Source: Chitinophagaceae bacterium (GTDB lineage Bacteria > Bacteroidota > Bacteroidia > Chitinophagales > Chitinophagaceae). Taken from it: a DNA stretch of 36,367 nt. The stretch lies in contig JANWHX010000225.1 in the NCBI GenBank assembly GCA_025450235.1, positions 1 through 36,367 on the forward strand, written 5' to 3'. Below are positions 6,439 through 19,219 of this stretch, piece by piece (the stretch's first letter is position 1; every line of letters starts with the position of its first letter). The notes below the pieces were generated by a model. The model was not told the origin of the DNA. It worked only from the letters and a program-made list of their open reading frames with translations, and ran no database searches. A program made the position numbers and the translations under genes.

Positions 6439-8769
6439 TTACAGATTCACATACTTCACCATGATCTTTATATCCCTGTTTCTTCCTTTATCATCTGTAC
6501 ACGAGATTTTCACCGGGCCTTCTTCCGGGACAAAAAACTGCTTCTCCCCGGCATTACAGGCTTTGTAAAACCGGTTGTTGACGTACCAATAAACCTTGCT
6601 GACATCATTGGATGTTTTGCAAATGAGTTGCAGCGGATCCGGCGACTTCTTGCTGATCAGGTATTCAGAGCCATTGACAGGGAAGGTGATAAAAGGAGCA
6701 TTGCCTTTAAAGATCAGCTCGCAATCAGGGTTATGCTCCGGTATTTTGCTATAGCTGATCCGGTTATCTTCATACCAGCTTTGCATATCTGGTCCTGTTA
6801 ATTTATACCATTTCTTTTTATACCCGTTTTCCGGAACACAGCCTTTGCAATAAGAGATCTTTTCTTCCGGGCTAATCATGATCTCCTGCCAGTTGTTGCA
6901 GGATTGGTTGGATGAAATCAGCGGAATAAAATAGTCGCTTGTAATATTGGTGCAGTGGTCTGTTGGAACAAGGCCTGTTTCACTGCAAACCTGTCTTATC
7001 TCGCAATCGTTCGGGGGAGTGAACCATTCTTCATCGCTGTCATAATCTATCGTATTAAAGATCTTAAATAATAAGGGAGTGGCTACGTTTGCACCGCTGA
7101 GATCTGCCACACCTACACCGGAAAAATTCCCCACCCATACACCTACCGTATAGCTTTTGTTATACCCAATGCTCCAGGCATCTCTTCTACCATAACTGGT
7201 ACCTGTTTTCCAGGCTATTTTCGGCATGCGTTCAGTAGCACTCCAATTCAAAGGAAAATCCGGGCGATTGATCTTTGATAATATCTCATTGGTCATATAT
7301 GCAGCGGCCGCGCTGACAATATTCTTCGCCGCATGAGCGGTATCATCCCGGGTAAAGGATGGAGATATATAATTTCCATTATTAGCAAATAAAGAGAACA
7401 TGCCCGTCAATTCTTCCAGGGTAGTGCCACATCCGCCAAGTATCATGGACAAACCAAGCTTTCGCTGATCTTTTTGTATTTGTTTGAAATTGCATTGAAT
7501 TAGTTTTTGAATGAGGGTCTCTTGTCCAAGCAGTTTCAAACTTTTTACCGCCGGAATGTTTAATGAATGATCCAGTGAATACTCAACGGTTACGTATCCA
7601 TTGAATTTCTGATCATAGTTCTCCGGCGCATATCCCTGGTAATTGACGGCCACATCCGACACCACGGCTTTGGGCGTTAACAATCCTTCATCAAAACACA
7701 AGGCATACAACAATGGTTTCAGTGTACTTCCGGGCTGCCGGACTGCGTTTGCTCCATTTACCTGCCCGCCATCGGTCGGGTCCATAAAGGCCGATGACCC
7801 AACGTAGGTAACAACCTTGTGTGTTTTGTTATCAATGATCACTACAGCAGCATTCTTAATGTTGCGTAGCCGCTGCGTTCTTACATAATCTTCTACGAGC
7901 TTTTCTGTTTTCAATTGCGTATTGAGTTCAATATTCGTTTCAATGAGGTCACCGCGGAGGGTCTTTTTTAGTTTGTAGGAGAGATGGGGAATGTAATGTG
8001 GCACCGTTCCTCTTGATGCGGCCAATGGTTCCACCAATGCATCTTCAATTTCTTTTTCGGTAAACACCTTATCTGCAGCAAATTTTCTTAACCAGCGATT
8101 CCTTTCTTCGACGATCCGGTCATTATTTTTTCCCATCACCAGGGAAGAGGGGCGATTTGGAATAATGCTCAAGGCGGTTATTTCTGCCAACGATAAGTGA
8201 TCCGGGTTTTTTCTGAAGTATAACTGGGAGGCGGATTTTACTCCTTCGATATTACCACCATAGGGAACCAGGTTAAGATACATTTGCAATATGTCATCTT
8301 TATCGTATTTCCATTCCAATTGAAGGGCCCGGAACATTTCAATCAGCTTGCTGCCTATATTTCTTTTTCTTGGTTCCAGGGCTCTTGCCACCTGCATTGT
8401 GATGGTACTGGCGCCGGATGTTCTTTTCATCCGGAAGATATTCTTGAAGAATGCTCTCGTAGCGGCAACGGGATTAATCCCGGGGTGAGAATAAAAGTAT
8501 TTGTCCTCTTTCGCTATGATCGTTTTGCGCAATAATGGTGAAATTTCATCCAGTTCTGTTTTCATCCGCCATTTCTGATCGCTGGTCAGGTACGCATTAA
8601 TAACTTCCCCATTGTTGTCGGTAACAATGGTAGAATATTCGATTTTATCGTGTAGCGGAAAGATCCAGTTTAATAAGAAGAAAAGCATGAATAGTGCGAC
8701 GATGACGATCCCGAGTCGTTTGACGAATTTCAGAATGAGTTTTTTGGTAATGCGGAATTTTAGTTTCAT
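6439..8769 (-). CDS. pbpC: Penicillin-binding protein 1C (bifunctional transglycosylase/transpeptidase)
   Basis: 776 aa; GT51 EDKYFYSHPGINPVAATRA and TSGASTITMQVARALEPR, transpeptidase RQPGSTLKPLLYAL, KTGTSYGRRDAWSIGY, C-terminal PBP1C domain. Confidence 0.95.
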   Translation of the reverse strand: MKLKFRITKKLILKFVKRLGIVIVALFMLFFLLNWIFPLHDKIEYSTIVTDNNGEVINAYLTSDQKWRMKTELDEISPLLRKTIIAKEDKYFYSHPGINPVAATRAFFKNIFRMKRTSGASTITMQVARALEPRKRNIGSKLIEMFRALQLEWKYDKDDILQMYLNLVPYGGNIEGVKSASQLYFRKNPDHLSLAEITALSIIPNRPSSLVMGKNNDRIVEERNRWLRKFAADKVFTEKEIEDALVEPLAASRGTVPHYIPHLSYKLKKTLRGDLIETNIELNTQLKTEKLVEDYVRTQRLRNIKNAAVVIIDNKTHKVVTYVGSSAFMDPTDGGQVNGANAVRQPGSTLKPLLYALCFDEGLLTPKAVVSDVAVNYQGYAPENYDQKFNGYVTVEYSLDHSLNIPAVKSLKLLGQETLIQKLIQCNFKQIQKDQRKLGLSMILGGCGTTLEELTGMFSLFANNGNYISPSFTRDDTAHAAKNIVSAAAAYMTNEILSKINRPDFPLNWSATERMPKIAWKTGTSYGRRDAWSIGYNKSYTVGVWVGNFSGVGVADLSGANVATPLLFKIFNTIDYDSDEEWFTPPNDCEIRQVCSETGLVPTDHCTNITSDYFIPLISSNQSCNNWQEIMISPEEKISYCKGCVPENGYKKKWYKLTGPDMQSWYEDNRISYSKIPEHNPDCELIFKGNAPFITFPVNGSEYLISKKSPDPLQLICKTSNDVSKVYWYVNNRFYKACNAGEKQFFVPEEGPVKISCTDDKGRNRDIKIMVKYVNL

Positions 8770-8813: not shown

Positions 8814-9116
8814 CATGAATCACCCCTTAACAAAGATTTATATTCCAAAATTTGCAAAGCTTCTTTTATACTCATTATCTTTCCTTTCAAATTCCTCGCA
8901 GTCTTTATGGACTCAACAGATTTCTCCTCCGATGGAGTACTCGCGGACCGGCCAACGAAAGATATTCCTCCCTAGCTTTTTTGACCACAGTAGTAAGTCT
9001 TTTCCCGACCAATGCCGGACAGGCTTTGTGTATGAAAAAGGATCAAGGCCAAATTTTTTGGTTCATTAAATTTCTTTACCTTCTCATTTATAACAGACAT
9101 CTCAACCAATCTTATA

Positions 9117-12100
9117 TGCGTATCAAATTCTTCCTTGCCCCGGTGTGTATCGGGACATTTTTTTTATTAGCCTGCAACAGACATAGTGCGATATCTCTTG
9201 ATTTTACCAATGCTAAAGGTGAAGTGCCACAGCTTGGAAATCTTGTCTTCCGGTTTAATCAATCTCTAGTGAACGATTCAATGCTTAATGCCTGGGATTC
9301 CACCGACTATATTTCCTTTGAACCCCGCATTCCCGGTAAGTTCCGCTGGGAGGGCCCCGATCAATTAGTTTTCTCGCCATCACAACCCCTGTTACCTGCC
9401 ACTTCTTATAAGGCCGAGATCAAAAAGGCGGTGTTACGGTTCAGTAAATACAATTCAGTAAATGGAGCAGAAGGGATCAGCTTTCATACGCCTGAACTTA
9501 CATTGGATAATTCACAGGTAATATGGACGCAACCCGGAGAAAGTCCCTCCTCAGCGTTGCCGCAATTGGATCTGCAATTCAATTACCGTGTCAACCCCGC
9601 TGACTTGAAGGAAAAACTAAACATAGAAATAGAAGGCCAGAAAGCCGACTATACTCTAATTACTATGTCCACGGATAATAAGATCTCTGTTCGGATTATC
9701 AATTTGAAAATGCAGGATAAGGATTATGAAGCTAAAGTGACAATTGATAAAGGTTTGAAACCTGAAAGCGGTAATAATTCAACGGGTGAACCCATCGTTT
9801 CCTCTTTGTCTATTCCCTCGCCTTATGTGCTTACTATCCAGGGATTGCAAGCAGAGCATGACGGCACCGAAGGAACCGTTCACATTACTACCAGCCAGCA
9901 ATTGACCAGTGAAAACGTGAAATCGTTGATCAAATTCGAGCCGGCCCTCAGCTATACTGTTGAACAAGCCGATGACGGTTTAGTTTTGCGCAGCGACAAG
10001 TTCGATCTCGAAAAAAGTTATTCATTAACCATCGCAAAAGGATTGCGGGGTAAGATCGGCGGTGTATTAAAAGAAGACTATTATGGAAGCGTCGCTTTCG
10101 GCGAATTGGAAGCCAATATAAGTTTCAGCAGTAATAAGGCGGTGTATTTATCAAAAAAAGGGGGGAAGAATATAGAAGTGAAGATCACAAATGTGCCTAA
10201 AGTTAAACTGGTTATTTCTAAGATCTATGAGAGCAATTTGCTGATGTCACAGCGATATGAGTATTATCCGCAGGAAACAAGAGCCAGTTATGCCAGCTAT
10301 GAGGATTATGATGGCGAATACTGGGGAAACAGGAGCGAGGCAACGTTAGGTGATATTATTTATGAAAAAGAAATCGACACTAAGTCATTACCCAAAAGCG
10401 GGATCGGCCGCATACTGAATTTTTCACAGTTCGATGATCGCCTGCAGGATTTTAAAGGTATTTATCATGTAATGATCCGTTCGACCGAAGACTATTGGAT
10501 AAAAGACAGCCGCTACATTTCTTTATCTGATCTTGGTTTGATTGCTAAAGAGGGACAGGATAAGATCTATGTTTTTACCAACTCAATAAAAACTGCCGGG
10601 CCGGTAGATGGGGTGAACGTGTCAGTGTATGCTGCCAACAATCAATTAATAGGAAATGGTTCTACTAATGGCGAAGGCGTGGCAGAAATCTCTTATTCAA
10701 AAAAGGATTTTGGTGGATTCAAACCAGCCATGGTCATTGCAAAGACAGCTGATGATTTCAACTATCTTCCTTTTAATAATACGCGGGTAAATACTTCACG
10801 CTTTGAAGTAAGCGGTAAACGAAATAATCAAACTGGGCTTGATGCCTTTGTATATGCGGAAAGAGATATTTATCGCCCGGGTGAAAAGATCAATTTTTCT
10901 GTGGTGCTTCGTGACAGGCAGTGGAAGGTGCCGGGCAATATCCCTCTAAAAATGAAATTCCTTCTTCCGAATGGTAAAGAATTGAAGTCGTTTAGGAAGA
11001 GCTTGAATGAAGAAGGTTCGTTGGAGGGTAATATAGATATTGCTACGTCTGCCATTACCGGTGGATATACCCTGGAAGTGTATACTTCAAATGATGTATT
11101 ACTGGCGAGCAAAAATTTTTCGGTAGAAGAATTCGTTCCGGACCGGATCCGTATAAATGTAAAGCTTGATAAAACGTTCATGAAACCGGGTGAATCCTCG
11201 AATCTGTCGATCAATGCGACTAACTTTTTTGGTCCTCCGGCGGCAAACAGGAATTATGAAACGGAGATCCAGGTGAAGCAAAAATATTTTGCTCCTGAAA
11301 AATTCGGTGACTATAATTTTAGTTTCGCCAACCAGAACACCTTCTTTGATAAAGTCGTGAAGCAGGGAAAGACAGATGAACAGGGAAATGCCAGTGAAGT
11401 ATACGCAGTGCCGGCAACATATGGTAATATGGGTGCTTTGCAGGCGAGTTTTTACACGACGGTATTTGACGAAACTGGAAGACCGGTAAGCCGGGCGGCA
11501 TCGGTAGATATTTATACACAGGATGTTTTCTTCGGGGTAAATCGTGATTGGTTTTATTATTATCCGCTGAATCAGCCTGTAAAGTTTCAAATTGTCGCGG
11601 CTAACAAAGAGGGGAACGCCGTCAGTGGGACTGCAAGAGTGGAAGTGATTAAGCATGAGTACCGGACTGTACTCAGCCGTAGCGGCGAATATTTCCGTTA
11701 TGAATCGCAAAAGGACGATAAAATGATGACGGAAAGCCAGCTATCTGTCAGCAACAGCGGGAATACTGTTTATAATTATACCCCGCGTTCTCCGGGTGAA
11801 TATGAATTACGAATTTATCGGCCGGGTGCGAGTAATTATGTCAGCCGCAACTTTTATAGCTATGGAGGATGGGGCTGGGGCAACAATTCATTTGAAGTGA
11901 ATAATGAGGGCAACGTGGCCATAAAACTGGAGAAAAAATCTTACCTGGCAGGTGAAACGGTGAAAGCTTTATTCACCACTCCGTTCAGTGGTAAGATGCT
12001 CGTAACGATGGAAACAGACCATGTCATTTCTTACCAATACGTGGAAGTTAGTCAACGTAATGCAAGTCTTGATCTCAAACTGACCGGTGATCATGTGCCT

Positions 12101-14530
12101 AATGTTTATATTACTGCAACATTGATCAAACCGCATGAGGTATCAGACATTCCATTAACAGTTGCCCATGGTTTTCAAAATATAATAGTGGAAGAAAAAA
12201 GCCGGAAGATACCCATGGAGATCATTGCAAAGAAAAATGTTCGTTCTAAAACACACCAGCGTGTAACAGTGAAAGCTATTGCCGGAAGCTTTGTCACCTT
12301 ATCAGCCGTTGACAACGGGGTTTTACAAATAAGTGATTTTAAAACGCCCGATCCTTACAACTATTTCTATCAGAAAAAAGCATTGCAGGTAAACGCGTAT
12401 GATCTTTACCCTTTATTATTTGCAGAGGTAAGGAGCAAGATCAGCAGTACAGGGGGTGACGGTGAAAGCGACATGAGCAAAAGAGTGAACCCGATGCCGG
12501 CGAAAAGAATAAAGGTAGTGAGCTATTGGAGCGGGATTGCAAAGGCAGATGGCGGCGGCGAAGCCAATTTTGAATTTGATATTCCTCAATTCAGCGGCGA
12601 ACTAAGATTAATGGCAGTTTCATATAAAGGATCAGGATTTGGGTCTGCTGAAAATACAATGACCGTCGCCGATCCGATCGTTATCAGCACAGCTTTGCCG
12701 AGATTCTTAAGTCCGGGTGACACGGTGATTGTGCCGGTGACACTTAGTAACACGACTGATAAAACAACCAGTGTAAAGGCTGATATCACTACCGATGGTG
12801 CTGTAAAACTGATAAGCGGCTCAAGTCAAACTGTTTCACTTAACGCAAAGAGCGAAGGCAGGGCTGTATTTAATGTTGTGGCCGGTTCAACCATTGGTAT
12901 TGGAAGTATAAAAGTCACCGTAAATGGTTTGGGTGAAAAGTTTGAGGACGCCACTGAAATATCTGTTCGTCCCCCGTCAACTTTACAAAAAGTTTCAGGC
13001 AGTGGTTCAATTGCGGGAGGAAGCACCCAGAAAATAAATATTGGGTTAAGTGATTTTATTCCGGGCAGTACGGATTACACTTTGGTAGTGAGCCGGTCAC
13101 CAGTGTTGGAACTGGGTGAACAGTTGCGTTACCTTGTTCAATATCCATATGGATGTACTGAACAAACCGTATCGGCAGCTTTTCCGCAATTGTATTATGG
13201 AGACCTGGCCGACCTGATGCAACTGAACAAACAAAATAAGCTCAATGCAAATACAAATGTTCTGGAAGCGATCCGTAAGATAAAGATGCGGCAATTATAT
13301 ACGGGGGCAGTTACATTGTGGGATGGGGAGGGTGAACCAGATTGGTGGACGACGATCTACGCCGCACATTTTTTATTGGAAGCAAGAAAGGCCGGGTTTG
13401 ATGTAGGTGATGGTTTGATTGAAACCATGCTGAACTATATCAGCAATCATTTAAAGAATAAAGAAACGATCAACTATTATTACAACAGGAACCAGAACAG
13501 GAAAATCGCACCTAAAGAAGTTGCGTATAGTTTATACGTATTGGCTATTGCCGGCCGTACCAATATCCCGGCTATGAACTATTATAAAGCCAATACCTCG
13601 ATCCTTGCCCTGGACAGCCGTTATCTTTTGTCTGCGGCGTACGCCATAGCGGGGGATAAAAAATCATTTATGGCAATGCTTCCTTCTACGTTTGCCGGGG
13701 AAGAATCAGTACCGCAAACAGGGGGCAGCTATTATTCTGATGTGCGTGACGAAGCCATTGCATTAAATGCGCTGATCAGCGTTGATCCGGGCAATGCACA
13801 GGTGCCGGTAATGGCGAGGCATGTAGGGGATAAATTGAAAACCCGTAATTGGCTAAGTACACAGGAGCGGGCCTTCGCATTTTTGGCATTGGGTAAACTG
13901 GCAAAATCGTCTAACAATGCGACGGCAACTGCGGAGATAAAAGTGGATGGTAAAACGATCGCTAAAGTAGATGGAGGCCAGTGGAGAGGAGATAAGAATG
14001 CATTGAAAGGAACGACAATAGAAATAACGACGAGGGGGAGCGGTCCAATGTATTATTACTGGAATGCAGAAGGCATAAGTGCGAGCGGTGTTTATAAAGA
14101 AGAAGACAATTATCTCAAAGTCAGGAAACGTTTTTATGACCGGTTTGGAAATTCACTCTCGTCAAATACTTTTAAGCAAAACGAACTTATTATCATTGGC
14201 ATTACGCTGGAACGCTCATTCTCGACTCCAATAGAAAATGTAGTTATTACTGATCTGTTGCCTGCAGGTTTTGAAATTGAAAACCCAAGAACAAAGGAAA
14301 TACCCGGTATGGACTGGATCAAGGATGCATCCTATGCAACTGCATTGGACGTAAGAGATGACCGCATTCATTTCTTTGTGGATGCATATGCCAACAAACA
14401 GACCTATTATTATGCCGTTCGCGCTGTTTCACCCGGTCAGTATAAGATGGGACCCATCAGTGCCGACGCCATGTATAATGGGGAATATCACTCCTATAAT
14501 GGCGCGGGTGTGATAAGGGTGCTGCAATAA
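9117..14530 (+). CDS. Bacterial alpha-2-macroglobulin family lipoprotein (MG domains, thioester)
   Basis: MRIKFFLAPVCIGTFFLLACNRHS lipoprotein signal at 9117 (ORF track opens at 8852 without a signal); MG2-like AERDIYRPGEKINFSVVLRD; thioester motif YGCTEQ (codons 13151-13165); C-terminal FFVDAYANKQTYYYAVRAVSPGQYKMGPISADAMY. Confidence 0.93.
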
Positions 14531-14734: not shown

Positions 14735-15562
14735 TTATTTACTATTGTTGTTATTAGAGACTACAGTAACTACAGGTATTTTGGAAGCATACGATAAAAG
14801 TTTATTCGTGATTCTGTTCCATAATCCCGGAAGACGAAAATCTTTTACCGGATTTACCATTATCAGGTCGGCATTGATTTTTTTGGAGAACTCCAGCGTG
14901 CTCTTGGCCAGGTTCTGTCCTTCCAGCAAAAAGCATTGAACAGGAATGGTAGATATGCTTTGAACTACTTCCAGCGCTTTATCAACAATATTCACATTCT
15001 TGTCGTCGGCATGTGTTCTCAATGAAACAAAATAAACCGTCGATTTGAAGGCTCTTCCAAGTAAGGCTGCCAATCGAATTTGCCGCATCGGTATTTCGCC
15101 GGCTACGGGTAAGACGATCTTTTTAAAATGACAAACCAATCCACTGGCTCTCACGGCGAGAACAGGAACATTTGTTTTCTTTGCCAACCGGCTGATCGAA
15201 ATAGAAGATGCAATTCTGTGTATAAGGTTGAATTTAGGAAGCCCGGTCACTACAAGGTCCATTTCGTATTGCTGAATATATCTGGCAAGCTGTTCCTGCC
15301 GGTTACCTGTTAAAACGTTTATTTCCAGCGTTCCTTCACCGCACAGTTGTTGCCGGTAACTGTCTTTTACCTGTACTAATTTTTCTAAAGAAATTTCGAC
15401 CTGTTTACTCCTGTTGAAAATCGAGCTTCGTTTACCGGTCACATGTACAAGGTGAATATTGCAATTGAAACTATTGGAAAGCTCAATGGCTTTGGCAATT
15501 GCCCACCGGTTTTTCATTGTGAAATCTACCGGAACTAAGATATTATAAAGTCTGTTGGACAT
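14735..15562 (-). CDS. Universal stress protein, tandem UspA domains
   Basis: 275 aa; NILVPVDFTMKNRWAIAKAIELS...VVTGLP...VPVLAVRA then second KIVLPVAGEIP...LIMVNP...IPVVTVVSN. Confidence 0.85.
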   Translation of the reverse strand: MSNRLYNILVPVDFTMKNRWAIAKAIELSNSFNCNIHLVHVTGKRSSIFNRSKQVEISLEKLVQVKDSYRQQLCGEGTLEINVLTGNRQEQLARYIQQYEMDLVVTGLPKFNLIHRIASSISISRLAKKTNVPVLAVRASGLVCHFKKIVLPVAGEIPMRQIRLAALLGRAFKSTVYFVSLRTHADDKNVNIVDKALEVVQSISTIPVQCFLLEGQNLAKSTLEFSKKINADLIMVNPVKDFRLPGLWNRITNKLLSYASKIPVVTVVSNNNNSK

Positions 15563-15636: not shown

Positions 15637-17013
15637 TTACGCCAATGCGAGTAAAGGTTCAAAGTTCCTTTCCTTAATACTCTTATGGGCGATCTTTTCC
15701 AGCAATTCATCCGAGGTACAGAAAGCAACACCCTTTCCGGCATATGCGATTATGCACCTGTCATCTTTATTGTCGCCAACGGCAATACAATTCTTCATCG
15801 CTACGTTATATTTTTCACATACATGTTGCAGCGCATTGGTTTTGCAGAATGAATGTCCGCAAATGCTATCCGGTGACCCGAAAAAATAGGACGGCAGGTT
15901 CACTTCCCCGGTTGCCTTGCCTTCAAAAAATTCGAGCTGGTGGGCCACGGAGAAATCAGCGCCTATCTGTTGCTTTACATAATTAGCGATTAAGGTATAG
16001 CTATGACTGATAATACCCACGAGGTAGCCTTTTTGCCTGAATGTTTGCACTACTTCTTTTATGTTGTCCGCCATTTCCATATTACTGATTACATGAAGCA
16101 ATTCATCCATTGTCCGGTTCTTCAGCAAAAGTCCAATCCGTTTTGTAAGAATGATTGGATCTTTTTCACGAAAGCGCAATTCTTCTAATTGAGGCATAAA
16201 TCCAAAACTTTCCGCACATTCGTTGATAAACCTCTTTTTCAATATCGTTTCATCCATATCAAGCACAATCATTTTGTTATACACAGATAAATTCTCGCGT
16301 AACACATTATTCATTTCCCGTTGAATGACTTCCAGAGAATTTGCACTTTCAACTGATAATGCGTTATTTTCCTGTCCCTGTGCTTTTGTAATAATTGCTC
16401 GTGACACTTCCCGGCTCATTTTACCCAATGCCTCCCACGGTTTACTTTTATTTTCAATATATCCGATGTTGACCTCTTTTACCCTGGCTTTCATCAGGTA
16501 CATGTCAATGAGTATGCCGATGTCAACTCCATAGTCATTAAAGAACTCAATTTTCTGGAAGAATGTTTTTTTCCCTGCAATCATTCCGCTGAGCGGCTGT
16601 GAAAAATGCGATAATCCAGGGAATAATATCGTTAGGAGCGGTTTGGCAACGAGCTCTGTTACACGTCCGGCATTTCTTGCAAAGGCTCCTTTCACAAAAT
16701 CGGCTTCACTGTTCACAATTGGAACGGTAAGTTCTTTTATGGAATTTTCCGGGTAAGGATCGATATCAGCGTCAAGGAAAACTATGATCTCATTTGTCGA
16801 ACCATCAATACCCTCTCTCATGGAAATACCCTTACCTCTCGATGCACTTATTATGACTTTTGCCCCGGCATGTGCTGCTATTGATGCTGTCTTGTCTTCT
16901 GAGCTGTCATCGACTACTATAATTTCCGAAACGTCCGGATCTGCCTGGCAAAAGTTTATTACTTGCCCGATTGTTTTTTCTTCATTTAAAGCAGGAATGA
17001 CGACAGTGAGCAT
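15637..17013 (-). CDS. Fusion protein: GT2/GT81-like glycosyltransferase (glucosyl-3-phosphoglycerate synthase-like) plus HAD phosphatase (SerB-like)
   Basis: 458 aa; aa 1-210 VVIPALNEEKTI, VVDDSSEDKT, FLDADIDPYP, GRVTELVAKPLL, QPLSG, YGVDIGILID, ENKSKPWEALGKMSREV; aa 248-440 HAD motifs LDMDETILKK, GIISHSYT, AVGDNKDD. Confidence 0.85.
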   Translation of the reverse strand: MLTVVIPALNEEKTIGQVINFCQADPDVSEIIVVDDSSEDKTASIAAHAGAKVIISASRGKGISMREGIDGSTNEIIVFLDADIDPYPENSIKELTVPIVNSEADFVKGAFARNAGRVTELVAKPLLTILFPGLSHFSQPLSGMIAGKKTFFQKIEFFNDYGVDIGILIDMYLMKARVKEVNIGYIENKSKPWEALGKMSREVSRAIITKAQGQENNALSVESANSLEVIQREMNNVLRENLSVYNKMIVLDMDETILKKRFINECAESFGFMPQLEELRFREKDPIILTKRIGLLLKNRTMDELLHVISNMEMADNIKEVVQTFRQKGYLVGIISHSYTLIANYVKQQIGADFSVAHQLEFFEGKATGEVNLPSYFFGSPDSICGHSFCKTNALQHVCEKYNVAMKNCIAVGDNKDDRCIIAYAGKGVAFCTSDELLEKIAHKSIKERNFEPLLALA

Positions 17014-17297: not shown

Positions 17298-17717
17298 TTA
17301 ATAATCATTGCTGTAACCGCCACTTCCGCCGCGATCACGGTTGTAACCGCCGCCGCCGCCTTTATTGTAACCGCCACCGCCGCCACCTTTGCCTTTGTAG
17401 CCGCCACCGCCGCCGCCGCCACCAAAGCTTCTCTTTTTGAAGCCGCCGCCACCACCGCCGCCACTTCCACCTTCAGGTTTAGGGCGACTTTCATTGACGA
17501 CAATGTTGCGACCATCAACCTCAGAACCATTCAGAGCAGCAATTGCTGCCTGGGCTGAAGTATCATCGGCCATTTCAACAAAGCCAAAGCCTTTGCTGCG
17601 TTGAGTGAATTTGTCGGTAACGATCTTAGCAGATGTTACTTCGCCATACGTGGCGAAAAGGTTGGACAGGTCCTGATCTTTCAGGTTCCAACTAAGGTTT
17701 CCTACGTAAATGTTCAT
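17298..17717 (-). CDS. RRM-type RNA-binding protein with Gly-rich C-terminal tail
   Basis: RNP2 IYVGNLSW and RNP1 KGFGFVEM; tail GGGGGYNKGGGGGYNRDRGG. ATG at 17717 preferred over 17777. Confidence 0.93.
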   Translation of the reverse strand: MNIYVGNLSWNLKDQDLSNLFATYGEVTSAKIVTDKFTQRSKGFGFVEMADDTSAQAAIAALNGSEVDGRNIVVNESRPKPEGGSGGGGGGGFKKRSFGGGGGGGGYKGKGGGGGGYNKGGGGGYNRDRGGSGGYSNDY

Positions 17718-17752
17718 TTTACTGATAAATTTAAAAAAACTAATAAGTGCCA

Positions 17753-17766
17753 ACAGTAAACAGTAA
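17753..17766. repeat. Two tandem heptamers ACAGTAA
   Basis: ACAGTAAACAGTAA directly repeated upstream of the RRM gene. Confidence 0.5.
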
Positions 17767-17957
17767 CCATTGAACATTTACCATATGGATAAGTAGTTCT
17801 TCAGGACTTGTGAAACTGTACAATACACCAAGACAATACAAAATAACGGATTTTTTTTCGACATATTACCAATTAAAAAATTGATTTTTAAGGCGATTTA
17901 ATGAACTGTTCGTCTGAATTCTGCCACATTCCCTTGATTTTCACGATATTTCAGGCA

Positions 17958-18010: not shown

Positions 18011-19219
18011 TTAATTCTTGATCAACTTAGCTGATTGAATGTCTCCTTTTCCGTCATCCATTCTGACAAAATACACACCTGCAGGTAAACCCGCAATATC
18101 AATGGGTGTGTGGGATGCACCGGGAACAGGGATAATTGTTCTGATGATTTGACCAGCGGAGCCTGTAATCATTATTCTCGAATTACTCATTACCCGTCGA
18201 TGTTGTGCTGTGACTTCGTTAGTCGCTGGTACGGGATAAAGTTGTAATTGGTTTGAAAAACTATTGTTTCCCGAGATCTTTACGATGCCGCTGTATTTAT
18301 ATTTTCCATCATAGTCCATGCTTTTGATCCGATAAAATAATGTCGTCGATGGCACATCCACATTAGAGAAGGAATATATCGATTTGCCTTTGGCAACCGC
18401 TGTTCCTACTGTTGTAAAATTCGTGCCCGATGCACTTCTTTCAACCTGGTATTCCCTGACATTCACTTCGTCGCTCACGTCCCATCGCAAATCAACCCCG
18501 TTGGAGTTATTTCTTTGAGCGACTAAACCAATGAAGTCAACCGGTAACGAAAGAGTTTGGGGTCCGATCGACAAATTATCAAACACGGCAAAGGATCCTT
18601 CATTGATAAGGTATGTTAGTTCAACTCTGAAAGTTGTACTCGGGCCGCTGGCGATATCCGGATCAATGAGACGTAAACAAACATTTCCTTCAAAGCCATT
18701 CAGGAACGGTGTAGGATCGGGAACCGGCGATGTAACTCCATCAATATAAGGCGTCGGCGCCGGTGGCCAGGCAGCAAAGAACTGTACACCTGATGTAGCT
18801 ACAACGTTCGTAACTGTACCTGTCGGGCCTTGCGTCACACTGATGACTCTTACCTGGAATCTGTCGACTGCAGGATTGGGCACTATGTAATGAAATCCCA
18901 CATTAAATGTACCGTTAGGATTTGGATTTGGATACGGGGCTGAGATGATGTTCATCACCCGCGGGAACCCGGGAGAAGTTGTTCGGTATGGTGGTAAATA
19001 ATCAGTCCAATAACCGCGACCTGCGTGGTAATAAAAAGAACTATCAAAGATACTACCATAGATACTGGGAGAATTGGCGCCATTATCATTAAAATTGAAA
19101 TTGGCAACAACCCCATCACAGACTCCCGAAGTTACCTGAGAAGGGGTTTGTGAATTTGCAATAGACGAAATAAATAACAGGCCAACCAAAATGGCCCTTA
19201 CGGAGTAAATTTTTTTCAT
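18011..19219 (-). CDS. Secreted protein with T9SS type A C-terminal sorting domain
   Basis: 402 aa, signal MKKIYSVRAILVGLLFISSIANSQ; C-terminal LQLYPVPATNEVTA...GLPAGVYFVRMDDGKGDIQSAKLIKN. Confidence 0.85.
   Translation of the reverse strand: MKKIYSVRAILVGLLFISSIANSQTPSQVTSGVCDGVVANFNFNDNGANSPSIYGSIFDSSFYYHAGRGYWTDYLPPYRTTSPGFPRVMNIISAPYPNPNPNGTFNVGFHYIVPNPAVDRFQVRVISVTQGPTGTVTNVVATSGVQFFAAWPPAPTPYIDGVTSPVPDPTPFLNGFEGNVCLRLIDPDIASGPSTTFRVELTYLINEGSFAVFDNLSIGPQTLSLPVDFIGLVAQRNNSNGVDLRWDVSDEVNVREYQVERSASGTNFTTVGTAVAKGKSIYSFSNVDVPSTTLFYRIKSMDYDGKYKYSGIVKISGNNSFSNQLQLYPVPATNEVTAQHRRVMSNSRIMITGSAGQIIRTIIPVPGASHTPIDIAGLPAGVYFVRMDDGKGDIQSAKLIKN

Follow-up and report, generated by a model that had tools for sequence, protein, structure and literature searches.

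The locus examined here raises the question of whether a single polypeptide could perform both steps, synthesis and dephosphorylation, of a glucosylglycerate-type pathway. The window, i.e. the whole analysed stretch of 36,367 nucleotides from a Chitinophagaceae bacterium, carries on its minus strand a gene in which a glycosyltransferase (GT) and a HAD phosphatase are joined.

A gene joining a glycosyltransferase and a HAD phosphatase

The fusion ORF has an ATG start, 458 codons and zero internal stops, while the plus strand read in the same register shows many stops. The preliminary description of this DNA had reported a single ORF of that length uniting both activities; every sequence block that it quoted was found at its residues (Table 1), and the same two-domain order is repeated in full-length homologues from many genomes. 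Pfam recognises Glycos_transf_2 and HAD hydrolase families in the protein. The AlphaFold2 model has a mean pLDDT of 88.6 and a pTM of 0.50; since the latter value is low, the placement of the two domains relative to each other is unsure. The pLDDT of the linker between them is about 51-71, falling below 50 at residues 237-243.

Table 1. Features of the fusion gene and of its two neighbours, with positions in the window.
Feature	Position	Strand	Basis or remark
Fusion ORF: GpgS-like GT, linker and HAD-IB phosphatase	15637..17013	minus	458 aa
N-terminal GT-A glycosyltransferase half, residues 1-212, GT81/GpgS-like	16378..17013	minus	HMM, PDB profile, Foldseek
DADI (residues 81-84), DxD motif; D81/D83 = Asp134/Asp136 of M. 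tuberculosis GpgS	16762..16773	minus	Alignment
GRVTELVAKPLL (residues 116-127); V118/T119 = GpgS Val186/Thr187	16633..16668	minus	Alignment
QPLSG(M) loop (QPLSG, residues 139-143); Ser210 equivalent retained, Glu212 equivalent = Met144	16585..16599	minus	
YGVDIGILID (residues 161-170); D164 = GpgS Glu232 (Asp192 of MgS)	16504..16533	minus	Alignment
KSKPWEALGKMSREV (residues 189-203); end of beta8-alpha9 loop and following helix	16405..16449	minus	Alignment
Flexible linker, residues 213-245; gene fission point in two relatives	16279..16377	minus	Model pLDDT
C-terminal HAD-IB phosphatase half with C1 helical cap, residues 246-458	15640..16278	minus	HMM, PDB profile, Foldseek
HAD motif I DMDET (residues 252-256); nucleophile D252, acid/base D254	16246..16260	minus	
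C385-x-H387-x2-C390-K391; candidate metal ligands beside HAD motif III Lys391	15841..15861	minus	
HAD motif IV GDNKDD (residues 413-418) and C420, candidate fourth metal ligand	15754..15777	minus	
Universal stress protein gene, next downstream, 74-bp gap	14735..15562	minus	Pfam Usp, conserved neighbour
RNA-recognition-motif-like protein with Gly-rich tail, next upstream	17298..17777	minus	Named by eye

Family and conserved residues of the glycosyltransferase half

Residues 3-228 match the NCBIfam model of glucosyl-3-phosphoglycerate synthase, GpgS (NF010496; E=2.9e-52), with 177.7 bits, which is below the curated equivalog cut-off of 262 bits; a Mycobacteriales sequence (L135) scores 372.1 against the same model. 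No match over this cut-off was found in the 11 genomes scanned, nor any further GpgS-close gene in the fusion-bearing genomes examined. Mycobacterial GpgS was the top match of the GT half in a PDB sequence search (E about 1e-27), and the PDB profile search gave GpgS at E=3.6e-47 and the Rubrobacter mannosyl enzyme MpgS (3f1y) at E=1.1e-42. As for the fold, Foldseek run with the GT half of the model returned GpgS 7qib at E=1.2e-19 and 5jqx with an rmsd of 1.7 A over 225 columns, the closest solved structures being GT81 enzymes. The likeness to GpgS, initially proposed from short sequence blocks, is thus borne out by HMM, PDB search and the comparison of the predicted model with GpgS.

In the structure of M. 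tuberculosis GpgS, Val186/Thr187 hold the carboxylate of 3-phosphoglycerate, Asp134-Lys114-Glu232 surround the donor sugar, Ser210 of PLSGE contributes to the exclusion of mannose, and Arg256, His258 and Asn260 belong to a loop that moves upon ligand binding, His258 being positioned as a metal ligand; a PLGG motif has been linked to mannose use in MgS (PMC2581804). According to the alignment, the window protein retains the donor network as D81-K61-D164, with Asp replacing Glu232 as it does in MgS, together with D83 of the DxD motif, the GRVT acceptor-carboxylate site (G116-R117-V118-T119) and the equivalents of Leu209, Ser210, Tyr229 and Met269. Glu212 of PLSGE is replaced by M144 (PLSGM), and Arg256/His258/Asn260 by I186/N188/S190. 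Among the GpgS-type sequences, Glu212, Arg256 and His258 occur in 13 out of 13, and Asn260 in 12 out of 13. His258 is present in nearly all the fusions from Proteobacteria, Acidobacteriota, Planctomycetota and Verrucomicrobiota, so that the residue appears to have been lost secondarily. Concerning the acceptor, 87 of the 90 aligned sequences have both the Arg185 and the Thr187 equivalent in GRVT (exceptions: L037, L090 and L128); since they are so widely kept, the acceptor likely carries a carboxylate and may be 3-phosphoglycerate.

Phosphatase half and candidate metal site

The match of residues 243-455 to the phosphoserine phosphatase model SerB (TIGR00338; E=1.4e-28) also remains below cut-off (100 vs. 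144.15 bits). Phosphoserine phosphatases (PSPs) were the top matches of the HAD half in the PDB sequence search (E=9e-15), 1f5s was retrieved by the profile search (E=1.8e-38), and Foldseek with this half of the model gave PSP 3m1y with a target-normalised TM of 0.89. The HAD-IB hallmarks are present, namely DxDxT, the Lys, GDxxxD and a C1 cap made of four helices between motif I and the strand at residues 330-339; the score against the HAD-IB model TIGR01488 is 42.1 for a cut-off of 45, and one homologue (L107) reaches 47.6. Motifs I-IV are intact and the five catalytic positions checked are all present, so the aligned catalytic residues of both GT and HAD stand in one chain.

Glu20 of PSP, a phosphoserine contact, corresponds to R261 in the window protein and is mostly Arg or Ser among the relatives, while the SGG of PSP motif II reads SHS here and SHS or SDS among the relatives. 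Because both are altered, phosphoserine would be an unlikely substrate of this half.

Of 68 relatives, 15 have lost one or more of the HAD catalytic positions but still have the GT. Ten of these 15 form one lineage that includes Chitinophaga (L018, L019, L020, L089, L091, L094-L097 and L101) and that bears a C-terminal hydrophobic segment. In this lineage the role has likely changed: with a dead HAD, its GT must work without an in-chain phosphatase or have taken on a new role.

A feature absent from the preliminary description is the trio C385, H387 and C390, which immediately precedes motif III Lys391, together with C420 shortly after motif IV. Out of 68 sequences, 46 have the trio together with C420, 21 have neither and one is an exception; because the trio and C420 come and go together, they probably form a shared metal site. 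When mapped on the tree, nearly all co-losses are concordant, with 4 independent pairs only and a sign test that is not significant. The candidate site presumably resembles the zinc loop of GmhB/HisB-type HADs.

As a separate observation, no gene over the SerB cut-off was found in a number of Chitinophagaceae genomes, fused or not (G000, G002, G011 and others), which suggests that these genomes rely on a different kind of phosphoserine phosphatase.

Distribution and phylogeny of the fusion

Within the genus group to which the window belongs, six of seven genomes have homologues with both domains, as do 10 of 30 other genomes sampled from its family; across the phylum, the full-length fusion occurs in 8 of 396 genomes, the window's own being counted. 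A wider scan, in which most relatives are fused GT-HAD proteins, recovered the fusion in Bacteroidota (Niastella, Terrimonas, Pseudoflavitalea, Chitinophaga, Emticicia and others), in Burkholderiales (Limnohabitans, Rubrivivax, Polynucleobacter), in Chitinimonas, and in Acidobacteriota, Planctomycetota (Gemmatales), Verrucomicrobiota, Bdellovibrionota (Bdellovibrionales) and CPR bins; the carriers are often metagenome-assembled bins, and single taxon labels need care.

In the GT-domain tree, true stand-alone GpgS (Actinomycetota and sequences from other Bacteroidota families) forms one group on a long branch of 1.21, with a support of 100/99, apart from the fusions. The separate genes and the single-domain GTs from Bacillota described below are nested within the fusion-rich half of this midpoint-rooted tree, which suggests that, in that half, the fusion came before them.

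The fusion is a real, scattered family that has apparently not been described so far. Our literature search found no paper describing a GT-HAD fusion of this kind; a review on glucosylglycerate synthesis does not contain the terms GpgS, GT81, fused or fusion, and a paper on Rhodopirellula solutes does not mention such an enzyme. Two other ideas were tried and rejected: for a plasmid-borne origin, the plasmids yielded three partial GpgS-type matches and no full-length one, and for a function in defence, PADLOC gave no match.

One glycosyltransferase, several pairings with a phosphatase

In two relatives, Pseudarcicella (L087) and a groundwater Sphingobacteriales bin (L120), GT and HAD are encoded by two neighbouring genes of the same strand, with a gap of about 15 and 8 bases, respectively. 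The split point falls in the region modelled as a loose linker, and the GT-domain tree requires two independent splits. In Bacillota, a close relative of the GT (48-55% identical) without HAD was found in eight loci. In six of them, the next gene codes for a histidine phosphatase (for L118, Pfam His_Phos_1 at E=3e-40): in L118, L119 and L127 it follows the GT gene immediately and on its strand, while L121, L122 and L129 have it in convergent orientation. M. tuberculosis GpgP (Rv2419c) is a histidine phosphatase too (PMC3866925, PMC4555173).

Since one GT occurs in three gene arrangements and with two unrelated phosphatases, a synthase-phosphatase pathway is the best explanation, and the product of the GT is probably phosphorylated. 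The order of a synthase followed by a phosphatase, as initially suggested, is supported by the HMMs, the fold comparison, the gene fissions and the pairing with a non-homologous phosphatase. As an additional observation, a group 1 (GT4-like) glycosyltransferase gene follows the histidine phosphatase gene in L118, L119 and L127.

Proposed reaction and alternatives

We favour, with a probability of about 0.55, a one-chain glucosyl-3-phosphoglycerate synthase/phosphatase producing glucosylglycerate. With a nucleotide sugar as donor (probably UDP- or ADP-glucose), the N-terminal retaining GT-A domain would glucosylate 3-phosphoglycerate at its 2-hydroxyl. From the resulting glucosyl-3-phosphoglycerate, the C-terminal HAD-IB domain would then strip the phosphate, which would make the pathway irreversible and release glucosylglycerate as a stress or osmolyte solute. 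Of the earlier proposal that this chain makes glucosylglycerate, the enzyme class stands; given a score below the GpgS cut-off and the replacement of Glu212, Arg256, His258 and Asn260, we infer the product itself, as we do the donor, the acceptor and the physiological role.

The same mechanism could act on a different acceptor (e.g. glycerol 3-phosphate, phosphoserine or another phospho-acid) and lead to a different solute or building block, a possible if tentative alternative. The altered Arg256/His258/Asn260 loop, the separation of the whole group from GpgS and the phosphoserine-phosphatase-like nature of the HAD half are in its favour; on the other hand, the conservation of GRVT points to a carboxylate acceptor, and the PSP residues described above are changed, which counts against phosphoserine as the acceptor. 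The product might then be a new glycosylated acid, and the motif III loop, stabilised by metal, might confer a new HAD specificity; we hold this as a minority possibility. A mannosyl-3-phosphoglycerate synthase/phosphatase making mannosylglycerate, functionally like MgsD of Dehalococcoides or MpgS of Rubrobacter, appears improbable: although the latter is a GT81 relative with a strong profile match and the Burkholderiales and related members carry the PLGG motif tied to mannose use, the window protein retains the PLSG Ser associated with glucose selection, and GpgS outscores MpgS for it.

That the HAD half is the phosphoserine phosphatase of the cell, fused by chance to an unrelated GT, is very doubtful. 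SerB is indeed the best family for this half, and several Chitinophagaceae genomes have no good SerB-like match other than the fusion; however, Chitinophagaceae that have no fusion lack a good SerB match as well (G007, G011, G014, G016 and G033), and two genomes (G013 and G038) hold the fusion plus another SerB-like gene. Moreover, the fusion is kept across many phyla, its halves stay adjacent when split, another phosphatase accompanies the GT in other lineages, and the substrate residues of PSP are not retained. Equally remote is a sugar transferase of the polyprenyl- or lipid-linked type, to which the phosphatase would be accessory. The GT-A fold is common to AglJ and to dolichyl-phosphate transferases, and the Chitinophaga-containing side lineage combines a hydrophobic stretch at the C terminus with a dead HAD. 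Yet a better alignment with dolichol-type enzymes, named beforehand as an argument against a GpgS-like enzyme, was not obtained (82.4 bits for AglJ and 56.5 for dolichyl-phosphate hexose transferase), the GpgS score being at least twice as high, and no segment of the window protein looks membrane-like (highest hydropathy over 19 residues, 1.06).

Comparison with known systems

With the mycobacterial pair GpgS (Rv1208, GT81) and GpgP (Rv2419c), the window protein shares the GT fold, DxD, GRVT, the Asp-Lys-acid network and the logic of a synthase plus a phosphatase. The mycobacterial system consists of two genes and uses a histidine phosphatase, whereas here there is one chain with a HAD; the window protein also lacks the PLSGE Glu, Arg256, His258 and Asn260, and has a shorter loop before GRVT. 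Rubrobacter MpgS (GT81, PDB 3f1y) has the same GT fold and family, but no fused phosphatase and a mannosyl donor. The bifunctional mannosyl-3-phosphoglycerate synthase/phosphatase MgsD of Dehalococcoides is likewise a synthase followed by a HAD phosphatase in one chain; it combines a GT55-type synthase with a HAD-IIB MpgP phosphatase, as opposed to GT81-like and HAD-IB in the window protein. Another one-chain osmolyte enzyme is Marinobacter GgpPS, described as a glucosylglycerol-phosphate synthase/phosphatase fusion (PMC10873239). Its product is different from the one proposed here. The synthase of GgpPS is a GT-B enzyme, unrelated to the GT of the window. As for SerB (M. jannaschii 1f5s, H. 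pylori 3m1y), the HAD-IB fold and catalytic motifs are common to both, while the window HAD scores below cut-off, has a changed Glu20-type residue and SGG, and carries the extra Cys-His-Cys-Cys set. One-chain sugar-phosphoglycerate synthase/phosphatases are thus a known kind of enzyme, the acceptor being possibly different here.

If the favoured glucosylglycerate reading is true, the synthesis of such solutes would extend to seldom-examined groups (freshwater Burkholderiales, Chitinophagaceae and CPR bacteria), and a single gene could be transferred to other hosts for osmolyte production. The series of fused, split, HAD-less with another phosphatase, and HAD-dead forms would serve well for studying the packaging of two-step pathways, and the altered acceptor loop makes the substrate assignment open to direct test.

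Gene neighbourhood

The adjacent universal stress protein (USP) gene, which had been said to fit a stress-related role, is real (Pfam Usp, E=4e-12), and USP genes are neighbours in 17 loci. The nearest relatives share the order rpsF-rpsR-rplI-RRM-fusion-USP, the RRM gene being a conserved neighbour among them; other relatives display the order response regulator-kinase-fusion-USP, the regulator and kinase lying directly upstream of the fusion in several loci. In the two split loci, the orders are USP-regulator-kinase-GT-HAD (L087) and regulator-kinase-USP-GT-HAD (L120). That the USP gene and the two-component pair have repeatedly rejoined the fusion speaks for a role in stress, in line with the initial proposal.

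Other neighbours were also noticed. Genes of the ClC chloride channel and Na+/H+ exchanger or antiporter families lie near five of the fusions (L083, L107, L117, L078 and L098), which may hint at ion or osmotic stress. In the window, a 402-aa secreted-type ORF (18011-19219, minus strand) stands between rplI and the RRM gene, a position that is empty of such a gene in most syntenic relatives. Further away, a divergent pair (6439-8769, minus strand, and 8852-14530, plus strand) resembles, as judged by eye, a gene of the penicillin-binding protein 1C type next to a giant gene of the alpha-2-macroglobulin kind.
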